Below, piece by piece: positions 12,301-64,000 of a stretch of 64,000 bases of DNA (its first letter is position 1; each line of letters opens with the position of its first letter). The translations under genes and the position numbers were made by a program. This DNA comes from Halichondria panicea. Its lineage: Eukaryota; Porifera; Demospongiae; Suberitida; Halichondriidae. The notes under the pieces were generated by a model, which saw only the letters and a list, made by a program, of their open reading frames with translations, searched no databases and was not told where the DNA came from. The DNA is taken from the NCBI RefSeq assembly GCF_963675165.1, contig NC_087380.1:6270071-6334070 (forward strand), given 5' to 3'.

Positions 12301-15300
12301 CCCGTGAATGTATTAACTCCACTCAGCTCGACAATGCTGTCCAACATGTAGAGAGCATTACCTTCGTTGTGTATGTAAGAACTGTTATGGCTTGTCAGTG
12401 TGGTACCAACTATAGACACTGTTGTTATATTTCTCTGTGAATTATCCTCGAAAACACAATTGCTTATCTTTGCATCTCCATCTATAACGTGTAACGCAGC
12501 TCCAGCTAGCGTAGCTTGATTGCTCGTGAATATCGCTTGTTCAATGTTGGCAAAATCTTGAAATGTGGCCACAGCTCCACCAACGTATCCAGTATTGTTT
12601 GTGTATATGTCCTTTGCACTGAAATAGCTGCCGTGGACAACCTTTACAGCTCCACCGTAGTACACTGCTGAATTATTAACAAAAATATTGTGTGAACTTC
12701 GATAAACTCCATTTCCAATATTTCTCTCAAAAAGTACGTGCACAGCTCCTCCACCATCGCAAGCGGTGTTGTAAAAAAATTGATCATGTGAGCTCGTATA
12801 TTGATTTTTCCCATTGTCGTTGAACTCCACATTGACTCCGCCCCCAGTATACTTCGCACTGTTGCTATGAAACATGTTTTGTACACTGTAGTATGATCCA
12901 TTATCTCTTAGTATAACGTCCATCCCCCCTCCAACATACGCTGCAAAATTGTGACGAAGCCTGTTTTGTGAACTGTTATAAATCGCATTGTCTGTAACGT
13001 ATGTGTGTACACCCCCTCCGCCCCCTCTTATGTCATCTGCACTGTTTTGGCTAAACAAATTGTCAATGCTGTGATAGTAACCGTGGTTCCCAAGAAATAG
13101 GCTAACTGCTCCGCCGAAATTCTTTGCTATGTTGCGAATAAATTCATTTTTCTGGCTGTAATAGTAACCTGTGTTGTCGAGCTGTTCAACTAACGCCCCA
13201 CCCATGTTTGCAGTGTTGCTGAGGTAGAGGTTTTGTGAACAGTTGTACAAACCATGCTCTCCCATCGTGACATAGCTTGCCCCTGCTTGGTCTTCAGATG
13301 TGTTGTTGATGAACGTGTTCTGTGTACTTGTGTAATACCCTTTGTCCGCGTGTGTCACATGACCAGCTCCTCCTTTGTGTTTGGCTGTATTGTGTGTAAA
13401 TTCGTTCTGTGTGCTTTGAAACTGACCACCTGTGGTTAGAAATGCAGAAAATGCTCCTCCATTGAATTCAGCTTTGTTATTCGTAAAATAGCAATTAGAA
13501 ATAGTCATATTGGTCACACTGACCCAAATGCCACCTCCATCACCATCAGCTCTATTACCGGTATAATTATCGCTTTTAAAACTACATGTAGCTACATTCG
13601 TTGTCATGGCAACTGCGCCTCCGTCCATCTTTGCATGGTTATTCGTGTAGTCATTATTGGAGCTTGATAGTGTCCCGCGTCGTACATAGATTGAACCACC
13701 GTAGTCTGCTTTGTTGCTTGTGAATTGACAGCCTGAAATACTTATAAAATCGACCTCGGCATAGACTGCCCCACCCAAACTGTAACGAAACGTGTTTGAA
13801 GCTTTATTGCCCACAAATGTAGTGTTGATTATTTGAAATAGATGTGCGTTTCGTACGAATAGTACTCCCCCTCTTATATCTACTTGACATTTTGTGCAGG
13901 TGGCTTTATTTTCTTTCAGGATTGAGTCCAATATCATAACATTCTTAATTTCTTCCAAGTGTATCACTCCACCATTTATTTGTGTTAGCCCTCTTGCCTG
14001 GTTGTCAGTAAAGTTACTCTTGGCTATAGTGAAGTCGTGAGCACCCACGACTGACAGTGCACCTCCACGAATATACGATGACGTAATGTTTTGCTGTTGA
14101 ATACGATTATTTGTGAAGCTACTCCTCAGCACAAGCATGGATTCTGTTTGCCTCACTTGTATAGCTACATGTATTTGTTCACTAATTTCTTCATTTTCAA
14201 TCCCCGTCTGTATATTGCAGTCTTGAATTGTGACCCTCTTTGTCTGACTGATTTTCAATACCGTTTGTCCGCGTATGATCATTACAAGCCCTGCAATATC
14301 CAGTGTGTGCACATTACTCACAATAAAACCACTAGATCCTGTAACGTTGACAACTGTATTGCCTCCAGCTATGGAAACATTGCTGATATTCACGAGTGAG
14401 ATGTATCGGTCTAGTCGGTGCACTCCTGAGGAGAGGACCATTGTCAAAGCATCGTCCACACTCGGGTTGCTTAGACTACCAAACTGTGCTAATGACATGC
14501 ACCTATCAGTGCTGTACAGCTGACACATGTGATCGTCGGGTACAATATGGTAGAGGGTGGAGGTAGCAATACTCGTGACTGCTAGGAAACTGATGATCAC
14601 ACTTGCAGTGTACATAGTTACTGCTACTAACTGCACACTGTAATTTTCGTATAATGTAATTGAGAGTTAGCTTACATAAATGTTAGTCTTGCTGCATCAC
14701 AGGCTTGGTCCAGTTCCTTTTTTAACATTAAGGCTCTTTTGAACTGAAGTCGTTGTATCGAGTATGAAAATGAAAGTGTTTACACCTTATCCATCCATGG
14801 ACACGTGTTGTTGCAGTTGTGCATATAATGTATAGATAAAGCTAGTAAAACAAACAATTTCGTTGTTGTTTTGCAAAACAGTGTCTTAAAAACAACAAAA
14901 CAGTGTCTTTGACGATGCATTTGAACTCTCTTATTTTTTGCCAGCACTGGCTTAATTGGGAGTGTTTTTGCCAGCACTGGTTGTGGCACACTCACTCTTG
15001 AAGTACTTTGCTACAAAATTAAATGTTTGAGCTATACGTGCCCCCTCCCTTTGCAGGAGAAGAGAGTGAGAAGAATATTGTGCTCATCTCTGCCAAGCTC
15101 TACATATTTGAGGGGGACACTCGGACGTGGAAGGACAGGGGGCGGGGTGAGATACGCTTGAACGACTCGGCCAAAGATGAAGGAGTTTTCCAATCAAGAC
15201 TGGGTACACAATGCATGACACACACACACACGTTACGTATGAATGTTCTTCCATTAACTCCACAGTTTTTAAATCGCATAGCGCCACACACACACACTCT

Positions 15301-42045: not shown

Positions 42046-45000
42046 TCAGTCATAACTAGAGTCTGTGTCTGGATCTTCGTTCTTCACCTTCTCTACCACT
42101 GGACTCCCCTCCCCCTCGGAACTGCCACGCCCACTAGTCTTAGGGGAACCCCCTGAGTCCTCACGGTCACGCCTATTCCCAACATCCTCTACGGGTGAGG
42201 GAGTGCGAGACTTGTGATGATGGCGGCGATGTTTCTTGGAGTGTTTCTTGCGTCTAGAAGATGATCTCTCATTAGGGCTGTTCTGGGGGGATGGGCTGCG
42301 GCTGTGGCTCTTGTGACGATGCTTCTTGCTCCTGGAGGGGGACGGGGTTAGTTGTAAAAGGTGACACATACAACAATTCCGTATAACTTGAAAATTTGGT
42401 GGGTGTTTTAATTTGGCAATTTGGCAGATTTTTACTGAAGATTGCCAAATTTAAAACCATCAAATTAAAGTTTCCAGTGGACACCAACGTCATTGCTGTA
42501 GTAGCCACGCTTGAGACGCCAAAAAAATATGCTAACTCGGTTTAAATGGCTCATTCGCCAAATACAATACCTGCCAAAATGCCCAGTTATAGAGGTGGCC
42601 TTGCTATCAGGGTTCAAACACATGCTATTAACAGAATAACCAGGCTGGTAATAGAAAGTAAACTGTTTATAGGGTGACCACAACACACAGGCTTCGCACT
42701 GTAACTGCACATTACTAGGAAGTTGTCTACAATGCCTACACCATTAGTACAGAGCAAGACTCTAATGAGGTCATGTACAGACAGAGCAAGACTCTAATGA
42801 GGTCACTTTGAAGTACATGTACAGACAACAACAGAATTATGTATACTGAAGATTTTACTCACTTCGATTTCTTAGGAGGCGGTGACTTCTCAGGGCTGGG
42901 AGAGACTGACTTCTCACGACGCTCGGATAACTCCTCCCTCCTCCGCTCTTGTCTCCGTGGTGACCTCGACTTTGACTTTCTACTATCCCTGCGCCTACGA
43001 GGGGGTGAGCGTGAACGAGACCTCGAGCGATGATACCTGCCTCGACGTGGTGGGGTTCTGGAGCGTGACCGTCTACGTACTGGAGATCTGGAATGAGAAC
43101 GTCTTCTTGGTGATCTGGAACGAGAACGTCTTCGTGGTGATCTGGAACGAGAACGTCTTCTTGGTGATCTGGAACGTGACCTTCTCCGTGGTGGGGTTCT
43201 GGAACGGGTTCTTTTACGTGGTGGAGTTCTAGAGCGTATCCTTATACGTGGTGGGGTTCTAGAACGTGACCTTATGCGTGGTGGAGTCCTGGAACGTGTC
43301 CTTCTTCGTGCACGGACTGAGGATCTGGAACGGGACCTCCTACGATATCGGTCTCTGGAGCGTGACGTTGAGCGACGCCTCTTGTCACGGGAACGGGACC
43401 TGGATCGTCGACGCTTGTCACGAGACCTGTATAAGTGAGAGGGTGGACTGACAAGCTATATACATGTAGAGATGCGTTACACATGTACACACACCATCAG
43501 TAAATTGTACAAGCCTGCCAAATTCTTGATTTCAGAGAAACATCATAAACTTCGATTCACACACACACACACCCCTCCCCACACACACACTGTACAATGT
43601 GGTGTACCTTGATCGTGACCTTGGTGGCCTCCTGATGGCAACTACAGGTACTTCTACCTCTGGCACCACGACACTGGCCTCAATGGCCATCATTGCCTCT
43701 TTGACCCTCTTCATGGCCTCGTCCACGTCCCTCTTGGTCTCCTGGGCAGTGGGGCCCTGAGGCTTCACTATGGCATTCTTGCTGTGGTTCACTCTGTGCG
43801 GTGGGGAGGGGTGTGGTGTGTGTGGAAGGTGGAGGGTGTGCGGTAAAGGCAGATACATCATAATATAGCAAAAGAATACAATATTACACACACTATGCAC
43901 AAAATGCACAATATTTACGTACATTTCTCTACAAATATCTACAATGTACTTATAAATTGACTATTTCCTTGATAACACTAGGGGGTACAAAAGTGGTCAC
44001 TGTAACGACATGAACAGGTTTCACTGTACATGTATGTCTATCATACAAGTTACGAGTTACACAGGCTAGTGCACGAGATGTGTACCAGAATAGGATGCCT
44101 CCAGGTCAGATGTACTGTACAGTAGGGAGGGGCGTATGCATGGCAACATGTGTAGGTAGTGTGTGCATGATATGTGTGGTGTGTGCGTGTTTATGTGTGC
44201 CAAAAAGAGAAAAGAAAAACCAATGATGACAGCATTATTTCAAAAGTGCATCATTGTGACAAAATATGCTATGGCTACTACATACACATGACTTGTACAT
44301 GCAGCTTGAGTGGGTGGGTGCCAACACATTCAATACATCTAGCATCCACATACAGTAAAAGGTAGCACACTAGAACCCTGTGCCTAAATACTCTCCTCGT
44401 GAACAAGGGATGGATGATGCACTCACTTGATTGGACGCTCTCCAAACATGGCTCCGTTGTATTGAAGGGCTATGGGCACAGACTCAGGTATTGCAAACTC
44501 AACAAACGCAAACCTAAAGAGTAAGACAAAGTGTTACTACAGCCAGTACATGTACATGATTGAGTATTATGTCTCTTGGATCTTTCCAGAAACAAAATTA
44601 GTCAGCAAAAATGAATAATCTGCTAAGCAGAATGGTTTACATTTAAATGTATGTGAAATCAAACCTAATAAGTTATCATTCATTTCCCTCACCTGGTGGG
44701 TTGGGTCTCGTCTCCGGCCATCCTCACGTATTTGATCTCACCACAAGGCTGGAAGAAAGTGAGCACCTGTTCAGCCGTCATGTTGCTAGCCAGGTTGCCG
44801 ACGTAGATGGTGCGTCGTATCTCTTCGATCTTGGTGGGGTCTACGTTACCAGTGAGAGGGGGAGGTTGGGGGACCACCGTGCCCATCATGGATATGAGGG
44901 GGGCAGTGAGCTGGGGGGTAGGTAATATCGTATATACACATGCATATATTGACAGAGCAAAGGTATCTAATGAGAACATAACGCTGTCACCAGACATATA

Positions 45001-46268
45001 CAACTACATTGTACATGTAAGTCTGTTGTATCTGGAAGCAAGAGAGGAATTTAAGTATATTTCGAGCGCTAAAGCTAATCTTGCATGAATAGTAACTTAC
45101 AGCTGCAGGGTTCATAGCAGCTCCCATAGCCATGGAGGCTGGTCCAGTGGGTGCTGGTGCCCCCATAGAGGGAGGTGTCGGGAGGAGAGGTGCAGTGTGA
45201 CCCATTGGTTTGCTAGCGCTGTTGGCCAGGGCAATGGCCGGGGCTGCCAGGAACATCGCAGCAGAACCATCAGGAATCTCAGCTGCAGGGAGTGTTAAGA
45301 CAGTTAATACACGTACACTGTAAGCTTGCTGTAATTAGGGTCTTACACAAACTCACACATTTTATTCTACCTTGTATCAATGTGAAAGTGAAACGTTGTC
45401 CTTAACACTAGTCAAAACTGTACGTGATTATAGTCACTGTTTACTAGTTCAGAATGTTCCCACAATTGATCTTCTGTACACCGGATTTCTTTCTATTGTG
45501 CATTGCGAGTTTGTTTGCAACGCAATCAGGCTTGTACAGTGTCATTCGTAATAATTACACGTATTCGAAACCCGTATACATGTACAGTAAGTTGAGATAA
45601 GATTGACTGCATCACCAACTGCCCTAGCTCACCATGTCTTGATCGTGCTATGATGAGAGCTCTGTCTATGAGCACAGTGTTGCTAAGGTGGAGACAAGCA
45701 GCTGCACTGTCTTCCTCCATGAAGTTGATGAAGCACACCTTGGAGGGGACACTCAGAGCAGCAAACTCCCTGCATGGAGAGGAGGGGATAAAGTGGGGGG
45801 TGGCAGATTATGTTCTTGAAAAATGGATGCCATATAGTTGAGACCGTAAATGTACGGCCCTTACACACTAGCTGGACGTGGCCAGGCCAACCGTTCTGAC
45901 AGATGGCTGAAGGACACGCTTATTGTAAATCTCTAAACATTGATATAAAAGACCGCTGTACTTTATATCGTCCATTGATACAATCACAGTTATTAAAAGA
46001 AAAGCAGACTTGAAAAGATTTACAATACAACCGTATATAAATATAACGGGGAATGGAAGCATAATCCCACTAAAATTAGCTGGGTACTAGGTATAGGCTT
46101 TATTTTCTCCAAATGATACCCACTCTCTCTCTCTCTCTCTCTCTCCACTTACTCCTCAGGGAAGAGCCTCAGTTCCTCAATATCTCCAAAGTAACTGAAC
46201 AGCTCCCTCATTTGTTGGAGGCCAGCAGAGGGCGACACATTGGTCACTTGGATCAGAGTAGTAGACAT
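42046..46268 (-). CDS. SREK1: SREK1-like splicing regulator (two RRMs, RS domain)
   Basis: Eight exons: 46153-46268, 45633-45769, 45101-45282, 44693-44910, 44427-44513, 43608-43793, 42863-43426, 42046-42331; 591 aa, all in frame. RRM1 (about 5-80) starts MSTTLIQVTNVSPSAGLQQM. An Ala/Pro/Met-rich linker follows (85-145). RRM2 (about 165-250) contains GNVDPTKIEEIRRTIYVGNL and RMAGDETQPTRFAFVEFA, nearly identical to vertebrate SREK1. NHSKNAIVKPQGPTAQETKR and a short coiled segment follow. The C-terminal ~280 aa are an RS domain with SRTPPR and SRSPRRR runs, mostly in one 564-nt exon lacking Met codons. SREK1 is a nuclear SR-related factor affecting alternative splice-site choice. A damaged paralogue lies at 57704-60256. 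Confidence 0.94.
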
Positions 46269-46857
46269 GGCTAGCTACTATACTAGACACTCTGTACTGT
46301 ACAGTTTCTATTCCATGTGCATGTGCTGAGGCTGATTCGATCTTTACCCAATTAATACACTTTTGTTTGTTTTACAGGGGGAGTACCCTCATAAACAGTT
46401 CTGTACAACCCTTTCAGTTGACAAAATCATCAATACAGACATTACATGTAGCTACAAATGTACATTATGGGCTTTCTAGATAAAAATGCGTTAGGTTTGA
46501 TTTACAAGATGTGATGCTGAAGGGCTACTGACATGTATATCAATAGAAAAATAAACATTCAAAAAGACACGAAATGTTTAAGTTACACTATACCTACATG
46601 TATCAAGAAGACACACACACACACACACACAACCGGCCACAATTAACGTTTTAGACTGACTCTTACAGTTTAACTATTATTTGGTGAGAAACTGCAATCA
46701 GGGCTGGTCTGTGGGTAAAGAATGTATATAATATAGCAGCCAGTCAATGTTAATGTTTAACTGAGTACTGGTAACACAGTGGGTTTACCACCCTATCTGC
46801 CCTATCGATCTGACATAGGTACAACCACTGATGTCATACATCAAGATTACCTCTTTG
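46269..46857. other. Spacer between the Death-domain gene 3' end and SREK1 start
   Basis: 589 bp, presumably holding the SREK1 promoter and the upstream gene's 3' UTR. It contains a (CA)n run at 46610-46630. It is about 98% repeated at 60257-60845. Confidence 0.6.
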
Positions 46858-49800
46858 TCATTTTAATGCCCTAGCGAGGATCTCGATATCCTTAGAGCTA
46901 TCAATTATAATGCCGCTTCTCGGCTGTGAGTAGAAAGCAATCAGTGATCATCAATGTACACAGTAAGTTAGCCTCAATCCCAGCCCCTCTCAATTGAGAA
47001 CGGCCTGGAATCGAGGCTAACAGTAAGTTTAATTACAAAACTGGTGTCATACGTATATACATGAGAAGCTAAATGCTAAATTGGAGTGCTAAATCTTCAG
47101 ACACTTCAATACGGTCATGGTGGTATACAGTAGACTCTCGTTAATCTGGTCACCCTTGGAACAGTGCAGCTTAATTAATTGGCTGGAATAGCGAGGTGAC
47201 TGCATTTTAGAAAATAGCTGCAGCTAAAAAGCGACCCTAATGACTAATTTTGCAGTTCTATCTCGAGGATAATGAACATTATGCTCTCTATTTAAGTGCA
47301 ATCAATTTTGCCAAACTATATACCCAAAACGGCCGTTATACATGTATAAAACCTATAGTTTTGGGCAGCCAGAACTGACCAGATACGGAATAGCGAGTGG
47401 CCGCACTTCAGGGCGAGTTTTGTGCAAGCTAGCAATCTGTACCGAACGAAATGACCGGATATCGAGGTGACCGTATTCAGAGAACCAGAATAGCGAGAGT
47501 CTACTGTATAATTAGTGGTGTGGTAATGTTCAGGCTTTTCATAACAAATTAATGTTCTGTTAGTCAGTCATCAGTCATCAGTGGTCACCATGCAATGTAC
47601 TATGTGAGGAGATAGCTAGCTAGTACGCTACTACATATATACTTGTAGTCTATTTGTGTCAACTGGTGATCTAAGTCATGATCGTTGTCAGAGATCTTAA
47701 TTAGTGGTGGATCACCGATGTACAATTAACAAATAGCATGACCCTCGTATTACCATTAGTGTCATACAAAGAATACCTGTGATGAAACAAAAAAGGTCGA
47801 TGAACTCAGTCGAGCCAGTGTATCTGGAGCATCAGTATCTGGAGCAACAGTTGGAGCATCTGGAGTATCTGGATGATCTGGATGCTGTTGGTAGAATGTA
47901 ATCAGAGATCAGTGTTCATCAATTAATGCACTCCAGCTAGTATTCTACTACATATATACTTGTAGTCTATTTGTGTCAACTGGTGACCTTAAGTCATGAT
48001 CGTTGTCAGAGATCTTAATTAGTGGTCAATCGCGATATACAATTAACAAATAGCAGGATACATTAAACAAGAGGGCGGCCAATTATTTGCGAGTACTAAT
48101 TTTTGCGATTTTACTCTCTCGAAATAGCAGAAATTAATACACGCGAAAATATGTCACCTTATTAAGATATAGATATATACTCGTAGTCTATTCGTGGTGA
48201 TTAGTGAATCTAAATCAATTACAATTTCTTAATCAGTTAGTCGATCACCAACACAAAATACTATAACCGTACATGGTACGATGATAGCTGGAGGAATCAC
48301 TATAGCTTCACTAAGAATACCTCACCTCACTAGATATCAAGAATAAATGATTCTTGCAAAGCCAAGCATAGATTACTGTACGTATAATTATAATAAAAAC
48401 TATGACCCTCGTATTACCAAGGGCTTATACAGAGAAGATACTTCTCTGTATACGCCCTTGGTAATACCATTGAAGATGTCGAAACAGAAGACATTGGAGG
48501 TGTAATATTAAGATGCTGTTAATTGGTAGAATGTAAATCAAAGATCAGTGTTCACCAATGAGAGGTGACAGCTAGTACATACACTAATATTATAGTTGTA
48601 GTTTCTTGTACATCATTTTTATATATTGTGGAGAGGTTGTTATGAATAATATCAAGGGCGTATAAAAGAAGAGAGGGCATGCAACTCCACTATCAGTACA
48701 CGTAGCTAGCAGAGTTCAAACATGGGCGGAGGAATGTGTGCATTTGCATGAAGTGCTAAAAACTGCGTTTCATGCACAGTCATGCACATTCATCCGCCCA
48801 CGTTTGAACTCTGCTCGTATAGGAGTTGCATGCCCTCTCTTCTTTTATACGCCCTTGATAATATGCTTAGTTGATGTGTCACAGGCATCGTGTTATGGCC
48901 TAATCCCAGGGGGGAATCTGTAGCCAGCCCCCCCCCCCCTGTATCTAGAGTACACTATATAGCTAGCTGTCACCTCACAGCATATTGGTGGACACTGATC
49001 TCTGATTTACATTCTACCAACATAATCCTGATAGGACACATGCAGTGTATCAAATGCCTCAAGTGAGTTTCACCGACCCTGTTTCATATCAGAGGAGGAA
49101 TGCCAGGGTCAAAAACTCATTAATTAAAACTTAAAACAGTATACCCTCGCGCCCCTGGGTTTATACACTACCACTAGCTTAATCCTCTTTATAATCACAA
49201 GAGGAATCGGTTGAGCTATCGCGCCCCAGAGGAATCAGCTTGAGAGAAGAGATCCAGACCTTTTATTACATTCTTCGAAACCACAAGATTGGAAAATTAG
49301 CCTTTCGTGGCTAGGGTATAAATTTTGATGTACTGGCTTACTGCACTGGATAGATCTAGGTATAGTAAGCTTCCCAAGCGGGCTAATAAAGAACAGAAGC
49401 GCTAAGCTGCTATATGCAGCAAATGTCAAGAACCTAGAACAAAGAATGTTTAATCCTTCAATTAAACGTGACCCTATTGACCCTGGCGTTCCTCTTCTGG
49501 TTTCATATAATGTTTATCGAGTATGTAGTAGAGAATACCATAAATATTATAGTTGTAGTTTTGCAGTGTTCACCAATGTGAGGTGACATGCAGCTAGTAT
49601 CAGTAGGTTTACATAGGATTGGCAGTGGGTTTGCCCGTGTTTAGCAATGTTCGCGAAATGATTGCTTACCGGAAGCCACGCCTTTAAATATTTGCACGTT
49701 ATAGCAGATTATTCTAAGAACAATTTTCGTGGACTTAATTTTCGTGTAGGATTGCTAACCCACGAAATCAGCAAAAATTAAGTCCCTCGAAAATTTCACG

Positions 49801-52800
49801 CTATACGAAATTAATGTTGTGCAATTGTTGACAATGAACGCACACACATATGCAGTTATTAGAAGAGGAGCTTAATGAAACAGAAGTCTATATATGGCTT
49901 AATGGACTGCACGACAAAATGTTTTCCTTTAAAACAAACAATCATCATAATGTTTGTATAAAAGCTATTAGCAAGTAGCTTTATGCTATGAAACCTCCGA
50001 GGCATCAGCACTCGCGGTGTTTTCATTAATTAATCAATGATGTTCCAGGATAGAAGCATGTAGATCTACAATGTGGAAGTATTAATAAGTATTTTGCATT
50101 AATTTCCTGTCAACGAATACTGTATGGTGGGTAATTTTCGTTCGTGCAAATTTTCGTACAAACGACCCTTTAATATTCGTACAGCTCGGATAGTGAAGTT
50201 GAATCTATCTTTTCGTATGATGCACTTCAATATGAAATATACGAAAATAACCTGCTATACAGTAATTAAAAAAGGGGGTGAATCTGCAATGAGGTCGGAG
50301 TTCACAAAATTAATGTTGCTTCTGGCAGTGTACATACATGCAGCTTTGCAGCTCTTTTCCGACTCTTGTAGCTAACAAACAGCTAGCGCTTTAGTGCAAG
50401 GCTAATAACTCAAATAGAAAGTTTGTGCGAACAGATAGTGCTACAAAAGATTCTGAAGAGACTGCAACAGCTTTCACTGTGAGTAAAACTAGCCATAACT
50501 CGAGAAAGAAGCTGTAGTTTGCTAATCCACGAATCACAATCCAAGAGAACGTGGCTAGAAGCCTAGAGAAGCTGTTATTTTTCGTCGCATTGCAACCGTT
50601 GAGCAGTTACAGCTGAAACAGACACACAGTCAAATTTAATATCCCTCGTGCGGCTACGCCTTGAGGCATATTACAAAATCAGCTACATATACATCAGTAT
50701 GTAATAGTGTATCCCTTCAGAGTTTCATCTAATGGGGGGGGGGGCAGGGGTAACCTTCCCCCCTCCCAAATTTTGTAGAATTATGACATATCATCAAGGG
50801 CGTATAAAAGAAGAGAGGGCATGCAACTCCATATGAGCAGAGTTCAAACGTGGAGCGGATGAATGTGCATGACTGTGCATGAAATGCTAAAAATAGAAAT
50901 TTCTATTTTTAGCACTTCATGCAAATGCACACATTCACGTTTGAACTCTGCTAGCTACGTGTACTGATAGTGGAGTTGCATGCCCTCTCTTCTTTTATAC
51001 GCTCTTGATATCATCACACTATGATGTGCAATATGTAACTCATCTACTGTGATGTAATAGGGGGTGTGGTCAAACATTTTACGTCGTGTTTCCGCGTGCC
51101 CAAACCTTCCCCCCAAACATTTAATCCTAGATGAAACCCTTCAGGGATTTAACCCTATGGACTTAGGTACGACCACTGGTGTCATATATACGTCATGAAA
51201 GTTTTACAAGAATACTGTATAGCGGGTAATTTTTGTGGGGTAAATTTGCTTCATTACATGCACTGTATTGCATGCGTTTCGGCAAGCCACGCCTATGTTT
51301 CCGTGGGTAAATCTTTGTAGAGGTCAGCCTGCCCACAAAATTACCCGCGAAACGGTAGCCAATTTTGTATTGATCATCACATCAGATATCTATGGTCAAT
51401 CACCAATATACCGTTGCGTAACAAAATACCATGACCAGCTAGGTATGATTGTACTACATGTACCATACATAAATCTTACAAGTACCCGACTCACTTACCT
51501 CCTCAGTTACAATTGTCACTGTGGGCTCAACCTCAACCATTACCCATAGTGTAGTCTTGGGTTCAGCCTCTTTTCCCTATATAAGAAGGCATACTAACCA
51601 TAATAAAGAAAAATTTGTGACAAATACAATGATATGTCCAGGTGGTACTCTTTTTTCTGAGGTGTCAGTGTTAGAGTTAGGGTTTTTATGAAATATACAT
51701 AGCAAAACACAGTAGAAATGTAAACGGCGACAATTTTCAAGCCTAGGTGCTTAATGGTGCTATATGAGTAGAGCTGTGTCTATTCCTGTGGCTACTGCAT
51801 TGGTATATAGAGCAAAGCTATTCCCAGACGAAGCTAATCAAAACACGGCAGCTTGAGCGACACCTAACTTACTGAAAATCGCTGGAATCTCCCCCTTTAC
51901 TACAGATAGTGAATTGTGGAAAGGTTGTTATGAATAATAACAAGATCTTTGCTTAGTTGGTGTGTCCATAGATAGAAGAGGAAGAGGGATTGGTAACGAA
52001 AGTACCCTCGTGTAATACCCGCTTTACCCGCGGTTCAATCGAGGCTGTGTCAACAAGCTAAAGCTGTAGATGGGCGTGTTCCGGTTAGGCCAAGCTGATG
52101 GCCTATTTCTACACACAGTGTATAATATACCACAAGCATATATGCTCAGTCTGTGCAACTCACTCGTATTTAAAGGTCTATGCCTATTTTAGCAGTTATA
52201 ACCAGCACGCTTACACGTTTTAGCAATACAAGACTATAAATAGCAGCTGTTCGCCTAAAACTTTACTGGAATGTCCCTTTTTACTGGGTGTGGTCAGTCA
52301 TTAGCAAGTATAACACGTGGCTCACAGACTGGGCGTGTTATATATTGCTGAAAAAGATTGTCTCGAGAAAACACAACTTTCTTATTTTGAGCGAGTTACC
52401 CGGCAAAATAGCCTCGTTTATAGGGCGTAACGCGGATAGTTTTCAAGGTTTTACTGCAGATTCAATGTAAAATGATCACGTGTACTGCTTCCGTTACCAA
52501 TCCCTCTTACTATTCTATCTATGGTGTGTCACAGGCATCGTGTTATGGCCTAATCCCAGGGGGGAATCTGTAGCAAGCCCCACCCCCACCCCACCTCACA
52601 GCATATTGGTGGACACTGATCTCTGATTTACATTCTACCAACAGATTCCTGATAGGACACATGCAGTGTATCAAATGCCTCCAGTGAGTTTCACCGACCC
52701 CTTCTGTTTCATATCAGAGGAGGAATGCCAGGGTCAAAAAGTCATTAATTAAAACTGGCCCTGTGTTTTACATGTAAAACTGAGTATACCCTCGCGTCCC

Positions 52801-55776
52801 TGGGTTTATACACCACCACTAGCTTAATCCTCTTTATAATCACAAGAGGAATCGGTTGAGCTATCGCGCCCCAGAGGAATCAGCTTGAGAGAAGAGACTT
52901 AATGACCTTTTATTACATTCTTCGAAACCACAAGATTGGAAAATTAGCTTTTCGTGGCTATAGGGTATAAATTTTGATGTACTGGCTTACTGCACTGGAT
53001 AGATCTAGGTATAGTAAGCTTCCCAAGCAGGCTAATAAAGAACAGAAGCGCTAAGCTGCTATATGCAGCAAAGGTCAAGAACCTAGAACTAATCCTACAT
53101 TAAACGTGACCCTATTGACCCTGGCATTCCTCTTCTGGTTTCATATAACGTTGTTTATCGAGTATGTAGTAGAGAATACTATATAGTTGTAGTTTTGCAG
53201 TGTTCACCAATGTGAGGTGACATGCAGCTAGTATTAGTAAAACCAGTAGGTTTACATAGGATTGGCAGTGGGTTTGCCCGTGTTTAGCAATATTTCACAT
53301 ATTTTGACTCATGTTTAATAATTATATAATTGTAGTTTCTTCCTATTCCAATAATGAGCGATTACTGTACGTATACAACTTACCCAATATTTAGCTATCC
53401 GTTCCTCCCTTGATAAATGCCTTGATGAATGCCTTGAAAACAATCTTTGGTACCACCTTTTCTCCCGTGTAGATGACTCACTACTCTCCTTAGTTACTCT
53501 TGTCACTGTGGGCTCAACTGTTTCCCCTGGTGATGATGTAGCCTTGGGTTCATCCTATATAAGAAGGCATACTAACCATAATAAAGAAAAAGTTGTGACA
53601 AATACAATGATATGTCCAGGTGGTACTCTTTTTTCTGAGGTGTCAGTGTTAGGGTTTTATGCATGATACATTGCAAAACACAGTAAAAATGTGAACGGCG
53701 ACAATTTTCAAGCCTAGGTGCTTAATGGTACTATGAGTAGAGCTGTGCCTATTCCTGTGGCTACTGCATCGGTATATAGAGCAAAGCTATTCCCAGACGA
53801 AGCTAATAAAAACACGGCAGCTTGAGCGACACCTAACTTAATAAAAATCGCTCGGTCAAGAACCCAGAACAAGAATGTTTAATCTTTCATTAAACGTGAC
53901 CCTATTGACCCTGGCCTTCCTCCTCTGGTTTCATATAACGTTGTTTATCGAGTATGTATATAGTAGAGAATACTAATATTATAGTTGTAGTTTTGCAGTG
54001 TTCACCAATGCCGTGAGGTGACAGCTAGTATACTAGTTTCTATAATGAGCGATTACTGTATGGTGCATTTTTAGAAAAAACTAACCATCCGTTCCTGACT
54101 ATATCTTCTTGATGAATGCCTTGGAAAGAATCGTTGGTACCACCTTTTCCCCCGTGTAGGTGACTCACTACTCTCCTCTGTTACACTTGTCACTGTGGGC
54201 TCAACTGTTTCCCCTGGTGATGGTGTAGTCTTGGATTCAGCCTCTTCTCCCTATTTAAGAAGGCATACTAACCATAATAAAGCGACAAATACACTGATAT
54301 GTCCAGGTGCAGATACTCTTTTACTCGTGCTATTATCGACACTCACTGCTCTTTGTGATGTTCTCCAAGAAAATAATCGCTGATACCACTTTTTTTCGTG
54401 GCTTTCTTGGATTGTCTTTTCCCCTTTCTCTTCAGTATACTCTTGTCTGATCTCAGGTGATGGTACTGGGTTGATGACTCTCTGAAATGAGCAAAACTAG
54501 GGAAAGTAATATAGGAGTCACAATCTCAACATACCTCAAAGATAATTTCACTTGTTGATCCATGAATTAACGACACCTTTAGCACAGAAGGAATTATTTG
54601 TGCAATTTGATCACACTGGTGAAATGATAATTGTACTATCCCTAGGAAGAAGAAAATAAGCTGAATGGAACCATCCTCGATTGAATGCAAGTGTAAAGTG
54701 TAGACAGGTACTTTAAGAATCCTAGCAATAGCAGCCTTTAGATCCGGATAAATTGCAAGAGAACAAGTGTCAAGCTTGAAGCAAAATTTAACTTTTTTTT
54801 TATCATCATCCAATCGGCTGATCTTGCAAGGCTCTACTTTCCATGCGTTGAGAAATTCTCTGAGCTCAATGAAATACGTAGCCAAATCACTTTGATCACT
54901 TTCAGCTCCAAACTTTTCTATCACATCTTCTAGAATCTCAAAATCAAGGAATGATGAAAATGGAGAGATAATAAGAAAGATTTCATCAACACTAGCAGCC
55001 CTTCTGAGATCTTCCTGCTGGTGGGCAAGCAGCATGTTACTCTCACTCTCAATCACAGCACAAGATGTTCGATACGATGTGAGGAGGGCTACCAGGGACA
55101 TCAATTCAACATTACACTTCTTTAGAGATTCTCTCGTTGCTGTTTGCAGGTTAGCAAACTTCTTCTTAATGTTTTTGATGTCGTTTGTCAGTTGCTGTTC
55201 ATCGTCACTCCTATACTTCCTTTTCTCCCTGTGGCCAGTTTTTTCTATGACGGCGGAGGAGTTGACATTTAATAATAGCTCTATTAATTATGTCTAAAAC
55301 AATTACCTGGAAGACAGTACTTCAGCTCCAACTTCTCTGCTAATCGTATTTCACCAACCAGAGCTGACCGTAGAGCATCAATCAATTGTTCCCATGAGGC
55401 TCCTATTGTCACCCGTAGCCAATGGAGCAGGACTGCCTCTAATGGATTGATTTTCCCCTGTTCGATTGCATCCAGGGTATCAGGAGTCAACCTCAGCTTC
55501 AGACCTATAGGTCGCCACTTAGCCCTCACTTCAACCAATTCTTCACATAGAGTACCCAAATCCTTTGTGTCTAAGCCTAGGTTTGTTCCTGTTCACAAAC
55601 ACAAATCTATATAATTATGTTCTCCTACATAATTATAGATCTAGCTACAGCTTTTTAGGCAGAGTGTACAACAAGCAGTTAATATGAACATTTTGATACA
55701 GAGTCCAATCTAATGATCAGAATAATTATGTCTAACCTTTCTGTTCCTGAATCTCAGGATCACCTTTAAAAGCCAT
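46858..55776 (-). CDS. Death-domain protein with serially duplicated tail exons
   Basis: My splice model has nine exons, 584 aa: 55737-55776, 55307-55588, 54535-55244, 54347-54481, 54086-54250, 53384-53554, 51499-51576, 47777-47884, 46858-46923. All junctions hold frame; exons 4-9 are phase 0 at both ends. Residues ~25-105 form a Death-fold domain (LCEELVEVRAKWRPIGLKL ... LLHWLRVTIGASWEQLIDAL). A charged, probably coiled-coil stretch follows (~108-165), then a module ending LHLHSIEDGSIQLIFFFLGI, a type I recall after Death domains in sponge and coral proteins. The tail is Pro/Ser/Thr rich and basic, with KKWYQRLFSWRTS, KRWYQRFFPRHSSRR and KRWYQRLFSRHSSR from three successive exons. Death domains mediate homotypic assembly in apoptotic or immune signalling; the role here is unknown. 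Tail exon usage is inferred and needs transcripts; the first three exons are firmer. Confidence 0.68.
47128..47506. mobile_element. 379-bp TA-flanked MITE, pogo/Tigger-like ends (copy A)
   Basis: Ends CAGTAGACTCTCGTTAATCT and AGAATAGCGAGAGTCTACTG (near-perfect TIRs of about 24 bp), flanked by TA. CAGT...CTCTCG termini resemble pogo/Tigger elements. No transposase is encoded. It lies in the last intron of the Death-domain gene. Paralogous copy at 61107-61486. Confidence 0.82.
48411..48467. repeat. 57-bp near-perfect palindrome
   Basis: GTATTACCAAGGGCTTATAC at the left mirrors GTATACGCCCTTGGTAATAC at the right. The core resembles the tips of the 48651 foldback family (AAGGGCGTATA), so it may be a minimal derivative. 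The related sequence near 47747 (CGTATTACCATTAG) lacks the insertion. Confidence 0.8.
48651..48859. mobile_element. Foldback MITE, copy 1
   Basis: Almost the whole 209 bp folds on itself. It starts ATCAAGGGCGTATAAAAGAA and ends with the complementary TTCTTTTATACGCCCTTGAT. Inner arms carry GCAGAGTTCAAAC and GTTTGAACTCTGC. It is flanked by AAT on each side (3-bp duplication). The paralogous module at 51930-51950 lacks it. Confidence 0.88.
50718..51142. mobile_element. CAGRGTTTCATCTA MITE interrupted by a nested foldback MITE
   Basis: Same family as 40157-40398. The outer element is split at ...GACATATC by the foldback MITE at 50793-51009 and resumes ATCATCACAC. A copy of the whole nested structure lies at 62991-63440. 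Confidence 0.85.
50793..51009. mobile_element. Foldback MITE, copy 2 (nested)
   Basis: 217 bp, same ends as the 48651 copy but opposite internal orientation, with a central AATAGAAATTTCTATT hairpin tip. It is flanked by ATC on both sides, inside the outer MITE. Confidence 0.88.
51905..53310. repeat. Diverged duplicate of the intron module at ~48620-49640
   Basis: Shares with 48870-49640 the blocks TCACAGGCATCGTGTTATGG, GACACATGCAGTGTATCAAA and AAGCTTCCCAAGCRGGCTAA. It differs by the absence of the foldback MITE and the presence of a 557-bp TIR insertion. Lies within the Death-domain gene introns. Confidence 0.85.
51967..52523. mobile_element. 557-bp inverted-repeat element
   Basis: Left end CATAGATAGAAGAGGAAGAG and right end TTACTATTCTATCTATG form TIRs continuing through GGGATTGGTAACG / CGTTACCAATCCC. 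It is flanked by GTGTGTC on both sides. The paralogous site at 48874-48880 has a single ATGTGTC and no insert. The interior shows no recognisable transposase. Confidence 0.82.
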
Positions 55777-57703: not shown

Positions 57704-60256
57704 CTTGATCATGTCCTTGGTGGCCTCCTGATGGCGGCTACAGGTACTTGTACCTCTGGCACCACGACACGGGCCTCAATGGCCATCATTGCCTCTTTCA
57801 CCTTCTTCATGGCCTCGTCCACGTCCCTCTTGGTCTCCTGGGAAGTGGGGTCCTGAGGTGGTGCAGTGTGACCCATTGGTTTGCTAGCGCCATTGGCCAG
57901 AGCAATGGCTGGGGCTGCCAGGAACATTGCAGTAGGAATCTCAGCTGCAAGGAGTGTACATGACTTACACATACACACACACACACACACTGTACAATGT
58001 GGTTACCATCATCATGTCTTTGGTGGCCTCTGGTGGCGACTACAGGTACTTCTACCTCTGGCACCACGACACTGGCCTCAATAGCCATCATTGTCTCTTT
58101 CACCTTCTTCATGGCCTCGTCCACGTCCCTCTTGGTCTCCTGGGCAGTGGGGCCCTGAGGCTTCACTATGGCATTCTTGCTGTGGTTCACTCTGTGCAGT
58201 GGGGAGGGGTGTGGTGTGTGTGGAAGGTGGAGGGTGTGCGGTAAAGGCAGATACATCATAATATAGCAAAACAATACAATATCACACACACTATGCACAC
58301 ACAATATTTACGTACATTTCTCTACAAATATCAACAATGTACTTTATAAATTGTGACTATTTCCTTGATAACACTAGGGGGTACAAAAGTGGTCACTGTA
58401 ATGACACGACATGAACAAGTTTCACTGTACATGTATGTCTATCATACAAGTTACGAGTTACACAGGCTAGTGCACGAGATGTGTACCAGAATAGGATGCC
58501 TCCAGGTCAGATGTACTGTACAGTAGGGAGGGGCGTATGCATGGCAACATGTGTAGGTAGTGTGTGCATGATATGTGTGGTGTGTGCGTGTTTATGTGTG
58601 CCAAAAAGAGAAAAGAAAACCATTAATGACAGCAGTTGAAAAGTGCATCATTGTGACAAAATATGCTGATTATTGCTATGGCTACTACATACACATGACT
58701 TGTACATGCAGCTTGAGTGGGTGGGTGCCAACACATTCAATATCCACATACAGTAAAAGGTAGCACACTAGAACCCTGTGCCTAAATACTCTCCTCGTGA
58801 ACAAGGGAGGGATGATGCACTCACTTGATTGGACGCTCTCCAAACATGGCTCCGTTGTATTGAAGGGCTATGGGCACAGACTCAGGTATCGCAAACTCAA
58901 CAAACGCAAACCTAAAGAGTAAGACAAAGTGTTACTACAGCCAGTACATGTACATGATAACATAACGCTGTCACCAGACATATACAACTACATTGTACAT
59001 GTAAGTCTGTTGTATCTGGAAGCAAGAGAGGAATTTAAGTATATTTCGAGCGCTAAAGCTAATTTTGCATGAATAGTAACTTACAGCTGCAGGGTTCATA
59101 GCAGCTCCCATAGCCATGGAGGCTGGTCCAGTGGGTGCTGGTGCCCCCATAGAGGGAGGTGTCGGGAGGAGAGGTGCAGTGTGACCCATTGGTTTGCTAG
59201 CGCTGTTGGCCAGGGCAATGGCCGGGGCTGCCAGGAACATCGCAGCAGAACCATCAGGAATCTCAGCTGCAGGGAGTGTTAAGACAGTTAATACACGTAC
59301 ACTGTAAGCTTGCTGTAATTAGGGTCTTACACAAACTCACACATTTTATTCTACCTTGTATCAATGTGAAAGTGAAACGTTGTCCTTAACACTAGTCAAA
59401 ACTGTACATGATTATAGTCACTGTTTACTAGTTCAGAATGTTCCCACAATTGATCTTCTGTACACCGGATTTCTTTCTATTGTGCATTGCGAGTTTGTTT
59501 GCAATGCAATCAGGCTTGTACAGTGTCATTCGTAATAACTACACGTATTCGAAACCCGTACACATGTACAGTAAGTTGAGATAAGAATGAATGCATCACC
59601 AGGCAACTGCCCTAGCTCACCATGTCTTGATCGTGCTATGATGAGAGCTCTGTCTATGAGCACAGTGTTGCTAAGGTGGAGACAAGCAGCTGCACTGTCT
59701 TCCTCCATGAAGTTGATGAAGCATACCTTGGAGGGGACACTCAGAGCAGCAAACTCCCTGCATGGAGAGGAGGGGATAAAGTGGGGGGTGGCAGATTATG
59801 TTCTTGAAAAATGGATGCCATATAGTTGAGACCGTAAATGTACGGCCCTTACACACTAGCTGGACGTGGCCAGGCCAACCGTTCTGACAGATGGCTGAAG
59901 GACACGCTTATTGTAAATCTCTAAACATTGATATAAAAGACCGCTGTACTTTATATCGTCCATTGATACAATCACAGTTATTAAAAGAAAAGCAGACTTG
60001 AAAAGATTTACAATACAACCGTATATAAATATAACGGGGAATGGAAGCATAATCCCACTAAAATTAGCTGGGTACTAGGTATAGGCTTTATTTTCTCCAA
60101 ATGATACCCACTCTCTCTCTCTCTCTCTCTCTCCACTTACTCCTCAGGGAAGAGCCTCAGTTCCTCAATATCTCCAAAGTAACTGAACAGCTCCCTCATT
60201 TGTTGGAGGCCAGCAGAGGGCGACACATTGGTCACTTGGATCAGAGTAGTAGACAT
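57704..60256 (-). pseudogene. Damaged tandem copy of SREK1
   Basis: Exons 1-3 are present with near-identical sequence (60141-60256, 59621-59757, 59085-59266). Exon 4 (first half of RRM2) is missing: 414 bp equivalent to 44561-44974 are deleted. Exon 5 is intact (58825-58911). An exon-6 copy (58006-58193) has a deletion near its 3' end that changes the terminal residues. A further block (57704-57944) fuses the start of exon 3 (AEIPTAMFLAAPAIALAN) to the end of exon 6 (SQETKRDVDEAMKKVKEAMM), ending in a TGA. RS-domain exons 7-8 are absent. Splicing exon 3 to exon 5 shifts frame and meets TGA after four codons. At most an RRM1-plus-linker protein of ~150 aa could be made. It may be expressed as a truncated form; I call it a pseudogene. 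Confidence 0.85.
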
Positions 60257-60845
60257 GGCTAGCTACTATACTAGACACTCTGTACTGTACAGTTTCTATT
60301 CCATGTGCATGTACGTGCTGAGGCTGATTCGATCTTTACCCAATACACTTTTGTTTGTTTTACAGGGGGAGTACCCTCATAAACAGTTCTGTACAACCCT
60401 TTCAGTTGATAAAATCATCAATACAGACATTACATGTAGCTACAAATGTACATTATGGGCTTTCTAGATAAAAATGCGTTAGGTTTGATTTACAAGATGT
60501 GATGCTGAAGGGCTACTGACATGTATATCAATAGAAAAATAAACATTCAAAAAGACACGAAATGTTTAAGTTACACTATACCTACATGTATCAAGAAGAC
60601 ACACACACACACACACACAACCGGCCACAATTAACGTTTTAGACTGACTCTTACAGTTTAACTATTATTTGGTGAGAAACTGCAATCAGGGCTGGTCTGT
60701 GGGTAAAGAATGTATATAATATAGCAGCCAGTCAATGTTAATGTTTAACTGAGTACTGGTAACACAGTGGGTTTACCACCCTATCTGCCCTATCGATCTG
60801 ACATAGGTACAACCACTGATGTCATACATCAAGATTACCTCTTTG

Positions 60846-63806
60846 TCATTTTAATGCACTATGGATCTCGATATCGTCAGAGCTATCAATGCAGCTTCTC
60901 GGCTGTGAGTAGAAAGCAATCAGTGATCATCAATGTACACAGTAAGTTAGCCTCGATCCCAGCCCCTCTCAATTGAGAACGGCCTGGAATCGAGGCTAAC
61001 AATAAGTTTAATTACAAAACTGGTGTCATACGTATATACATGAGAAGCTAAATGCTAAATTGGAGTGCTAAATCTTCAGACACTTCAATACGGTCATGGT
61101 GGTATACAGTAGACTCTCGTTAATCTGGTCACCCTTGGAACAGTGCAGCTTAATTAATTGGCTGGAATAGCGAGGTGACTGCATTTTAGAAAATAGCTGC
61201 AGCTAAAAAGCGACCCTAATGACTAATTTTACAGTTCTGTCTCGAGGATAATGAATCATTATGGTCTCTATTTAAGTGCAATCAATTTTGCCAAACTATA
61301 TACCCAAAACGGCCGTTATACATGTATAAAACCTATAGTTTTGGGCAGCCAGAACTGACCAGATACGGAATAGCGAGTGGCCGCACTTCAGGGCGAGTTT
61401 TGTGCAAGCTAGCAATCTGTACCGAACGAAATGACCGGATATCGAGGTGACCGTATTCAGAGAACCAGAATAGCGAGAGTCTACTGTATAATTAGTGGTG
61501 TGGTAATGTTCAGGCTTTTCATAACAAATTAATGTTCTGTTAGTCAGTCATCAGTCATCAGTGGTCACCATACAATGTGCTGTGAGGAGACAGCTAGCTA
61601 GTACGCTACTACATATATACTTGTAGTCTATTTGTGTCAACTGGTGACCTTAAGTCATGATCGTTGTCAGAGATCTTAATTAGTGGTCAATCACGATGTA
61701 CAATTAACAAATAGCATGACCCTCGTATTACCATTGGTGTCATAAAAAGAATACCTGTGGTAAAACAGAAAAGAAACGCCTTGGTTCATCATAAATCTGT
61801 GGGTAGAACGCAATCAGTGATCACCAATGTACTGTGTTTGGAGACGTAAAGCAATGAGTGATGTAAGCTGTGCTGTGCTAATGCCTCTCGCTGCTCAAAA
61901 AGCATCAGGTATAACGGGTATATTAATTATAGAAGAAGTTTGCTTTGTATAATGTATACCGTATACATGTAGCGCGAAATTTTCGAGGCACTTATATTTC
62001 GTAGAATGGCATCTAAAAGCATTTCTTTGCACAATGTTCGCGGAATGACTGCTTACCAGAAGCCACGCCTTTAATCTTTGCACGTTATAAAGAACAATTT
62101 TCGTAGACTTATTAAATTAAGCCCCTCGAAAATTTCGCGCTATACGAAATTAATGTTGTGCAATTGTTGACAATGAACACACACACATCCAGTTATTAGA
62201 AGAGGAGCTTAATGAAACAGAAGTGTATATATAGCAAGTAGCTTTATGTTATGAAGCCTCCGAGGCATCAGCACCCGCGGTGTTTTCATTAATTAATCAA
62301 TGATGTTCCAGGATAGAAGCATGTAGATCTACAATGTAGAAGTTTTAATAAGTATTTTGCATTAATTTCCTGTCAACGAATACTGTATGGCGGGTAATTT
62401 TCGTTGATGCAAATTTTCGTACGAGCGACCCTTCGTATATTCGTACAGCTCGGATAGTGAAGTTGAATCTAAAATAATCTATCTTTTCGTATGATGCACT
62501 TCAATATGAAACATACGAAAATAACCTGCTATACAGTAATTAAAAAAGGGGGTGAATTTGCAATGAGGTCAGAGTTCACAAAATTAATGTTGCTTCTGGC
62601 AGTGTACATACATGCAGCTTTGCAGCTCTTTTCTGACTCTTGTAGCTAACAAACAGCTAGCGCTTTAGTGCAAGGCTAACTCATAAGAAAGTTTGTGTGA
62701 ACAGATAGTGCTACAAAAGATTCTAAAGAGACTGCAACAGCTTTCACTGTGAGTAAAACTAGCCATAACTCGAGAAAGAAGCTTTAGTTTGCTAATCCAC
62801 AAATCAAAATCCAAGAGAACGTGGCTAGAAGCCTATAGAAGCTGTTATTTTTCGTTGGATTGCAACTGTTGAGCAGTTACAGCTGGAACAGACACACAGT
62901 CAAATTTACCGTATCCCTTGTGCGGCTACGCCTCGAGGCATAATTACAAAATCAGCTACATATACATCAGTATGTAATAGTGTATCCCTTCAGAGTTTCC
63001 TCTAAGGGGGGGGGGGGGGGCAGGGGGTAACCTTCCCCCCCTCCCAAATTTTGTAGAATAATGACATATCATCAAGGGGGTATAAAAGAAGAGAGGGCAT
63101 GCAACTCCATATGAGCAGAGTTCAAACGTGGGCGGATGAATGTGCATGACTGTGCATGAAATGCTAAAAATAGAAATTTCTATTTTTAGCACTTCATGCA
63201 AATGCACACATTCCTCCGCCCACGTTTAAACTCTACTAGCTACGTGTACTGATATAGTGGAGTTGCTTGCCCTCTCTTCTTTTATACGCCCTTGATATCA
63301 TCACATTAGTACTGTCTATGATGTGCAATATGTAACTCATCTACTGTGATGTAATAGAGGGTGTGATCAAACATTTTACGTCGTGTTTCCGCGTGCCCAA
63401 ACCTTCCCCCCAAACATTTAATCCTAGATGAAACCCTTCAGGGATTTGACCTTATGGACTTAGGTACGACCACTGGTGTCATATACGTCATGAAAAGTTT
63501 TACAAGAATACCGATATAGCGTGTAATTTTTGTGGGATAAATTTGCTTCATTACATGCACTGTATTGCATGCGTTTCGGCAAGCCACGCCTATGTTTCCG
63601 CGGGTAAAATTTTTGTAGAGGTCAGCCTGTCCACGAAATTACCCACGAAACGGTAGCCAATTTTGTATTGATCATCATAACAGATATCCATGGTCAATCA
63701 CCAATATACAGTTACGTAACAAAATACCCGCTAGGTAGGATCGTACTACATGTACCATACATAAATATTACAAGAATACCTGACTCGTTAATTCCTCCTC
63801 TTCTCC
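60846..63806 (-). CDS. 3' exons of a second Death-domain-family gene (continues past the right edge)
   Basis: Three exons are recognisable by homology to the gene at 46858-55776: 63780-63806 (GEEEELTSQ), 61755-61796 (IYDEPRRFFSVLPQ) and the terminal exon 60846-60902 (ending IHSALK, stop). All are phase 0 with intact AG/GT sites. The terminal exon differs from its paralogue by in-frame indels of 6 and 3 nt and ends at the same stop. The Death-domain part would lie beyond base 64000. It could be a non-functional tail of a partial duplication. Confidence 0.5.
61107..61486. mobile_element. TA-flanked pogo-like MITE (copy B)
   Basis: Same element as 47128-47506, carried along by the segmental duplication, so not an independent insertion. 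Confidence 0.82.
62991..63440. mobile_element. Nested MITE pair, duplicated copy
   Basis: Outer CAGAGTTTC..TCTA element split by a foldback MITE at 63071-63296, exactly as at 50718-51142; duplicated after the nesting event. Confidence 0.85.
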
Positions 63807-64000
63807 CTATATAAGAAGGCATACTAACCATAATAAAGAAAAAGTTGTGACAAATACAATGATATGTCAAGGTGGTACTCTTTTTTCTGAGGTGTCAGTG
63901 TTAGAGTTAGGGTTTTTATGAAATATACATAGCAAAACACAGTAGAAATGTAAACGGCGACAATTTTCAAGCCTAGGTGCTTAATGGTGCTATATGAGTA

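Follow-up and report, generated by a model that had tools for sequence, protein, structure and literature searches.

A tandem array of Death-domain genes with short tail exons

The stretch of DNA analysed here, a 64,000-base window of the genome of the sponge Halichondria panicea (contig NC_087380.1, hereafter C4, positions 6270071–6334070; positions without a contig or seven digits are counted from the first base of the window), carries on its minus strand a predicted Death-domain gene of nine exons, E1 to E9 (55776–46858), which encodes 584 residues without an internal stop and belongs to a tandem array of related loci whose tail exons appear to have been exchanged. The model has AG/GT at all its exon borders, and from E3 onward its exons are joined in phase 0; the splicing itself is a prediction from the DNA sequence. 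The start exon, E1 (55737–55776), is the least certain: only two other places in the cluster align with it, and an alternative donor 27 bases earlier would leave the phase unchanged. E2 (55307–55588) encodes the Death domain, which matches the Pfam profile PF00531, and E3 (54535–55244), directly after it, encodes 237 residues comprising a helical region and, over about the last 95 residues, a putative TRADD-N-like domain with the Gly-Ser turn EDGSIQL. Two borders differ from those of a preliminary description made from the letters of the window, in that exon 3 starts at 55244 and exon 8 at 47884.

The tail begins with E4 (54347–54481, 135 bases), which carries the motif WYQRLFSW, followed by E5 (54086–54250, 165 bases) and E6 (53384–53554, 171 bases), each a unit combining PGETVE with a WYQR motif (WYQRFFPR and WYQRLFSR, respectively), and by E7 (51499–51576, 78 bases), a short unit whose donor comes after ...TEE. 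These four exons are open, bordered by AG and GT and, as first described, in phase 0 at both ends, but the W-Y-Q-R motifs said to end E4, E5 and E6 lie near the exon ends and not at them, and the stretch PGETVEPTVT is present in E5 and E6, whereas E7 has only its later part, VEVEPTVT. E8 (47777–47884) is a Pro/Asp-rich tail exon, also in phase 0, and E9 (46858–46923) is the terminal exon, with a stop that is identical in the copies at 6330972 and 6365259. The 60 bases on each side of E9 are 98–100% alike in three loci; the window copy of the exon itself differs from the other two at 5 of 57 bases, with 9 gap columns.

The proposal that the tail consists of related exons held up, as similarity scores exceeded those of all 5000 shuffles for five pairs of units: E4–E5 (59, best shuffle 49), E4–E6 (66, best 54), E5–E6 (186, best 67), E5–E7 (68, best 41) and E6–E7 (51, best 45). 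For E4–E7, E8–E5 and E9–E5 similarity was not above that of 5000 shuffles. The introns upstream of the repeated exons had been taken for copies of one another, and E5, E6 and E7 do share an acceptor motif, TTATTATGGTTAGTATGCCTTCTT (24 bases, 0 mismatches at the three acceptors, with a further copy at 63813–63836 and a chance expectation of 0.00 in 100 shuffles), but the acceptor of E4 differs; the 20-base form of the motif originally given is exact at E6 and E7 and differs in its first base at E5. Just upstream of E7 lies an intron module (51577–51880, minus strand) common to E6 and other units; counting itself, it has 12 long matches in the cluster, and outside it there are shorter or diverged partial matches. 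We rejected an origin of the units from transposable elements, given that our searches found the exon units in the cluster alone and the intron module elsewhere as partial matches only. Intron 7 also holds a dispersed repeat of about 330 bases (50250–50700, minus strand), with 8 cluster copies at 95–100% identity (its own included) and at least 41 matches among those listed, 40 of 2279 candidates having been scored; this repeat is a possible substrate for unequal exchange.

The genome searched comprises 131 Mb in 39 contigs, and E3 has 109 matches in it, of which ten tandem loci at C4:6.324–6.434 Mb form a close group with about 72–100% identity in E3. Within this genome, similar tails recur in the array: E4-type exons are present in 8 of the ten loci and E5-type units in 9, and neither was found elsewhere. 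Both E4 and E5-type units are missing from locus g6433, and E4 from g6410, but the core frame is open in each. At locus g6402 (L020, C4:6400001–6410000) E3 is split over frames and E5 is frameshifted, which makes this locus a probable pseudogene of the array.

The sister locus at C4:6394 kb differs from the window gene at one base of 830 around E3 (99.9% identity), from which it is offset by 69,984 bases. So close a match would also be seen if part of the array were an assembly artefact of uncollapsed haplotypes that inflates copy number and identity, and to that extent it counts against a genuine ten-locus array. We consider such an artefact rather improbable, however, since the two copies differ at the E7 place, where the sister locus has a 27-base open exon (GEEEELTSK) against 78 bases in the window, and since the remaining loci differ by 7–17% in E3.

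Death domain and TRADD-N-like domain

The initial identification as a Death-domain protein stands. PF00531 matched the window protein at E 3.7e-4 and 21.0 bits, just below the cut-off of 22.6, and in 3 of the 5 neighbour copies scanned the corresponding stretch scored over it (best 28.4 bits); the domain is thus present in the family and borderline in the window copy. At least 148 places in the genome hold a Death domain, many of them clustered.

We call the end of E3 TRADD-N-like because its Gly-Ser/Cys turn matches a published feature of TRADD-N domains, because Pfam gives weak matches in relatives, and because the order of domains has been published. The feature in question is a tiny residue and a Ser, or occasionally a Cys, in the turn that links strands 2 and 3 (PMC8195603; statements on this and the other papers cited here refer to the passages covered). 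In an alignment of 25 members, the Gly of the EDGSIQL turn is conserved in at least 90% of members, mostly followed by Cys or Ser, and from the sequence and a weak model we infer that this is the beta2–beta3 turn. The Pfam family TRADD-like_N (PF20694) matches 4 of the 25 aligned members and, among relatives scanned singly, 5 of 20, all at residues 173–232 of the sequences scanned, with a best E of 8.6e-4 and every match below cut-off; a genome search with it returned one match, at E 0.044. PF13820 gave none in the genome, and its controls gave no match either. The domain also lies between the Death domain and a variable C-terminus, both in the window gene and in the relatives on contigs C3 and C2 that are described below.

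Several results speak against this assignment. The window copy itself matched no TRADD-N model, so the call rests on relatives, and a single-sequence model of the 95-residue segment had a poor fold, with a predicted local distance difference test score (pLDDT) of 57.5 and the order helix-strand-strand-helix-strand. VIA-align compared this segment best with FtsK (Z 5.6), with ribosomal S6 permutants among the other rows and no TRADD among the rows shown, and the best Foldseek match had an E of 0.12. For the Death domain plus E3, the PDB yielded nothing by sequence and weak matches only by family profile, led by coiled-coil proteins. The structure prediction originally suggested for residues 108–344 (E3) was run, and its pLDDT of 43.5 makes it unusable.

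The architecture had initially been thought to belong to no named family, a view that does not survive comparison with the literature, as a Death domain and TRADD-N followed by a variable C-terminus is that of a published expansion (PMC8195603).

Mosaic history of the tail

Growth of the tail purely by repeated duplication within the gene, with E5 copied to E6 and E7, was the explanation first proposed, and parts of the sequence agree with it: E5 and E6 have 91% identity across 136 bases, and the introns immediately 5' of E6 and E7 have 98% across 103. When exon and intron are taken together, however, a clade of the window's E5 and E6 is rejected (p 0.0045 with g6348 included, 3e-5 without it), and E6 with its 3' intron groups instead with the E5 units of g6371, g6381 and g6428 (support 98/97), while for E3 a clade of the window gene and g6428 is rejected at p 0.0025. 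On its 5' side, E6 is flanked by sequence that groups with E7-type units (p 4e-27 against the neighbours' group). E6 would most simply be a chimera made by exchange, in which an E7-type 5' flank was joined to a neighbour's E5.

The gene as a whole also resembles different neighbours in different parts. The window at 52.5–56.3 kb is 98–100% identical to C4:6392–6396 kb, and two blocks at 48.0–50.6 kb are 99–100% identical to C4:6421.6–6422.1 and 6423.6–6425.6 kb, part of the second block being dispersed repeat. E5 is identical to its counterpart in g6348 at 165 of 165 bases, with the two loci 89% identical in E3. With such mosaicism, intragenic duplication as the sole process is highly improbable, and we retain it as a possible founder of the E4- and E5-type units.

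Two tests weaken the case for exchange between loci. For g6348, the conflict between the E3 tree and that of the E4–E5 block falls short of significance (p 0.057 and 0.20), and exon letters alone do not reject the clade of E5 and E6 (p 0.34), which is compatible with intragenic duplication.

Variation and rates of change among tail units

Across the cluster we detected 21 E5/E7-type units, 17 by protein match and 4 by the acceptor module, and with donors chosen by the analyst 20 of them are open and end in phase 0 at lengths of 27–171 bases, the exception being in g6402. The four acceptor-module copies, at C4:6333936, 6356586, 6391701 and 6426604, precede open exons of 27, 27, 27 and 54 bases, respectively, which are quite unlike one another and for which donors were chosen by eye; the exon near 6426604 reads GEEEDEQYEQYEQYEIEE. 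E8-type exons are in frame in 5 of 7 cases (108, 81, 78, 66 and 42 bases), the copies at 6408725 and 6407600, on opposite strands with the same reading, having a broken frame. Three E9-type copies (6420495, 6387775 and 6407228) read differently from the window copy and were omitted from the three-unit E9 comparison. Locus g6348 may have a longer tail, predicted from sequence, in which E4 and E5 are followed by four further units, a 114-base E4-like exon without WYQR, and E8- and E9-type exons.

Since the tail exons are symmetric in phase 0, any subset of them would be in frame, as expected if they were mutually exclusive or cassette exons that give splice isoforms in the manner of Dscam rather than an all-included string. 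We think this unlikely, because units of different types, scattered over kilobases, seem unlike a compact exon cluster.

Rates of change differ along the gene. The ratio of nonsynonymous to synonymous change (dN/dS) is 0.23–0.45 for E3 in 7 window–paralogue pairs, and in the tail it is 0.52–4.11, on few changes, for pairs with E5 or E6; g6402 was left out of these sets for its frameshifts. In 4 of 5 window–paralogue pairs E4 is free of synonymous changes, and E3 in the same pairs has a synonymous divergence of 0.21–0.34, a pattern that suggests either recent homogenisation or constraint at the RNA level. In comparisons of exons with their flanks, whose pairs are non-independent, E7-type exons are more divergent in 6 of 6 pairs from 4 units (e.g., 21/78 against 8/118 bases, p 1.5e-4). 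E8-type exons are more divergent in 20 of 21 pairs, with the upstream flank itself diverged (0.231 against 0.302 for the exon), and E9 in 2 of 3 pairs. E6-type exons exceed their flanks in 5 of 6 pairs, yet their mean of 0.049 is close to the 0.054 of the upstream flank.

The high dN/dS of the tail could reflect relaxed constraint, which counts against a tail maintained for its function. The tail exons would then be largely unconstrained, duplicates left over from segmental duplication that drift, with no function of unit number, and the absence of E4 and E5-type units from g6433 and of E4 from g6410, whose cores stay open, and the frameshifts of g6402 fit such drift. We judge drift doubtful, though less so than the other alternatives, because nearly all E5/E7-type units and most exons of the E8 type have an intact, in-phase frame across their range of lengths, and because drift predicts similar rates in exons and flanks, which the E7-type exons contradict.

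Relatives outside the array and candidate partners of the tail

Two loci on contig C3, at 8.28 Mb (L025, 8278500–8284000) and 8.27 Mb (L044, 8271500–8275800), are the second and third closest relatives of E3 outside the cluster, at 37% and 36%, and each has a Death domain, an E3-like exon and then a frame encoding RING, zfTRAF and MATH domains, identified by a Pfam run on the first copy. In L025 the joint after E3 is in phase 0 and a 56-base exon connects it in phase with the TRAF frame; L044 has an E3-like exon with the same phase-0 donor, and an exact match to the 56-base exon is absent from it. These are possibly fused Death–TRADD-N–TRAF genes. They share with the window gene the Death exon, the E3-like exon and the phase-0 donor, and differ in having the RING-zfTRAF-MATH frame downstream where the window gene has its unit tail. 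Two loci on C2 (L026 and L027) have ankyrin-repeat frames downstream. The genome holds at least 150 places with TRAF-type MATH domains, many of them clustered, with 150 of 317 candidates scored.

The MATH domain of TRAF6 binds the motif PxExx[FYWHDE] (PMC9597381), and PGETVE fits it in 12 of 16 units by script and 12 of 21 overall, the remaining five having been judged by eye. Every unit with WYQR (9/9) holds PxExx[DE]. MATH/TRAF-type proteins are our first candidates for partners of the tail because the C3 relatives have a TRAF module directly downstream and because all nine WYQR units carry PxExx. Other observations tell against docking of this kind: the tail has 2 PxExx motifs and at least 2 occur in 674 of 5000 shuffled tails, so the count is not above chance; a unit would hold the motif by chance in 10–19% of cases, and 9 of the 21 units are without it. 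In addition, L024, the closest relative outside the cluster, had no Pfam match, and hence neither TRAF nor ankyrin, in the 5 downstream frames scanned. We treat the motif as a lead only.

Proposed function and exchange of tail exons

Taking the array, its units, their phases and their mosaicism as read from the DNA, and the in vivo splicing, immune role, docking and partner that we infer, we propose, as the explanation that we think somewhat more probable than not, an array of ten loci for Death and TRADD-N-like adaptors with exchanged tail exons and a disordered docking arm. Through its conserved N-terminal part the protein would enter death-fold signalling complexes, while neighbouring genes would recombine their small phase-0 tail exons, by unequal exchange or by conversion through near-identical introns, leaving near-identical paralogues that differ in the units they carry. 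The tail would serve as the docking arm, its units binding partners, of which MATH/TRAF-type proteins may be the first to consider, and the number of units setting avidity.

In a bolder version, which we regard as very unlikely, the array would serve to tune innate-immune adaptors through exon exchange in the germline, with neighbouring genes trading phase-0 cassettes, of which the full ones carry a MATH/TRAF-docking and a basic-aromatic motif. If true, individuals and paralogues would differ in docking valency, and a TRAF module fused in cis would have been replaced by a countable tail that recruits TRAF in trans.

Comparison with known systems

In the sponge Amphimedon, an expansion of the NCOA6 clade of TRADD-N comprises 357 proteins, mostly with 1–3 Death-like domains, TRADD-N and then a variable, often fast-evolving C-terminus (eLife 2021, PMC8195603). 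The window gene is like these in combining a Death domain and a TRADD-N-like domain with a variable C-terminus within a large lineage-specific expansion. The tails named for Amphimedon consist of ankyrin, SH3-LRR, kinase, MATH, SH2, PDZ or enzyme domains, with no mention of exon-unit tails in the passages covered and not one use of the word 'exon' in the main text (PMC8195603). Vertebrate TRADD likewise has a Death domain and TRADD-N, and recruits TRAF2 through the MATH domain of the latter (PMC8195603), but in the window gene the order is reversed, with the Death domain first, and there are an extra helical region and a tail of repeated units. We liken the Amphimedon proteins to the window gene at the level of architecture.

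The sea urchin SpTransformer (Sp185/333) protein is not known to be related to the window protein. Its genes offer a likeness in being clustered immune genes with coding repeats and signs of local instability, and differ in that their repeats form part of one exon, the second of two, and are not separate symmetric exons (PMC5491942, PMC8634487, PMC10887614). Dscam also has exons duplicated in tandem, with roles in immunity and in the nervous system, but these are mutually exclusive exons for Ig domains in one gene (PMC3236188), whereas the window shows short linker exons over an array of genes. In the literature covered on sponges, TRADD, death domains and exons, no paper on exon-unit tails was found, judging by titles and the openings of abstracts.

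The surprising part would be the exon-exchange history of the tail, the Death and TRADD-N architecture being already known. Prior work on TRADD-N described variable, fast-evolving C-termini without an exon-level account in the passages covered (PMC8195603), and in the array an exon-level mechanism can be read in the DNA: near-identical genes differ in their tail exons, recombination seems to take place within the borders of single units, and the frame is for the most part preserved, with the short exons diverging more quickly than the sequence on either side. Organisms with TRADD-N expansions are stated to lack corresponding expansions of MATH (PMC8195603), unlike this genome with its many MATH places, and the presence of Death–TRADD-N–TRAF loci in the same genome suggests a lead on what the tail binds.

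Other features of the window

A gene fragment with its flank is present at 43632–47865 and again at 58030–61840, a tandem duplicate about 14 kb apart that is 97–100% identical in blocks, with one copy starting on each side of the Death-domain gene. Further away, on the minus strand at 9390–14666, a single reading frame of 1758 residues contains repeated motifs.
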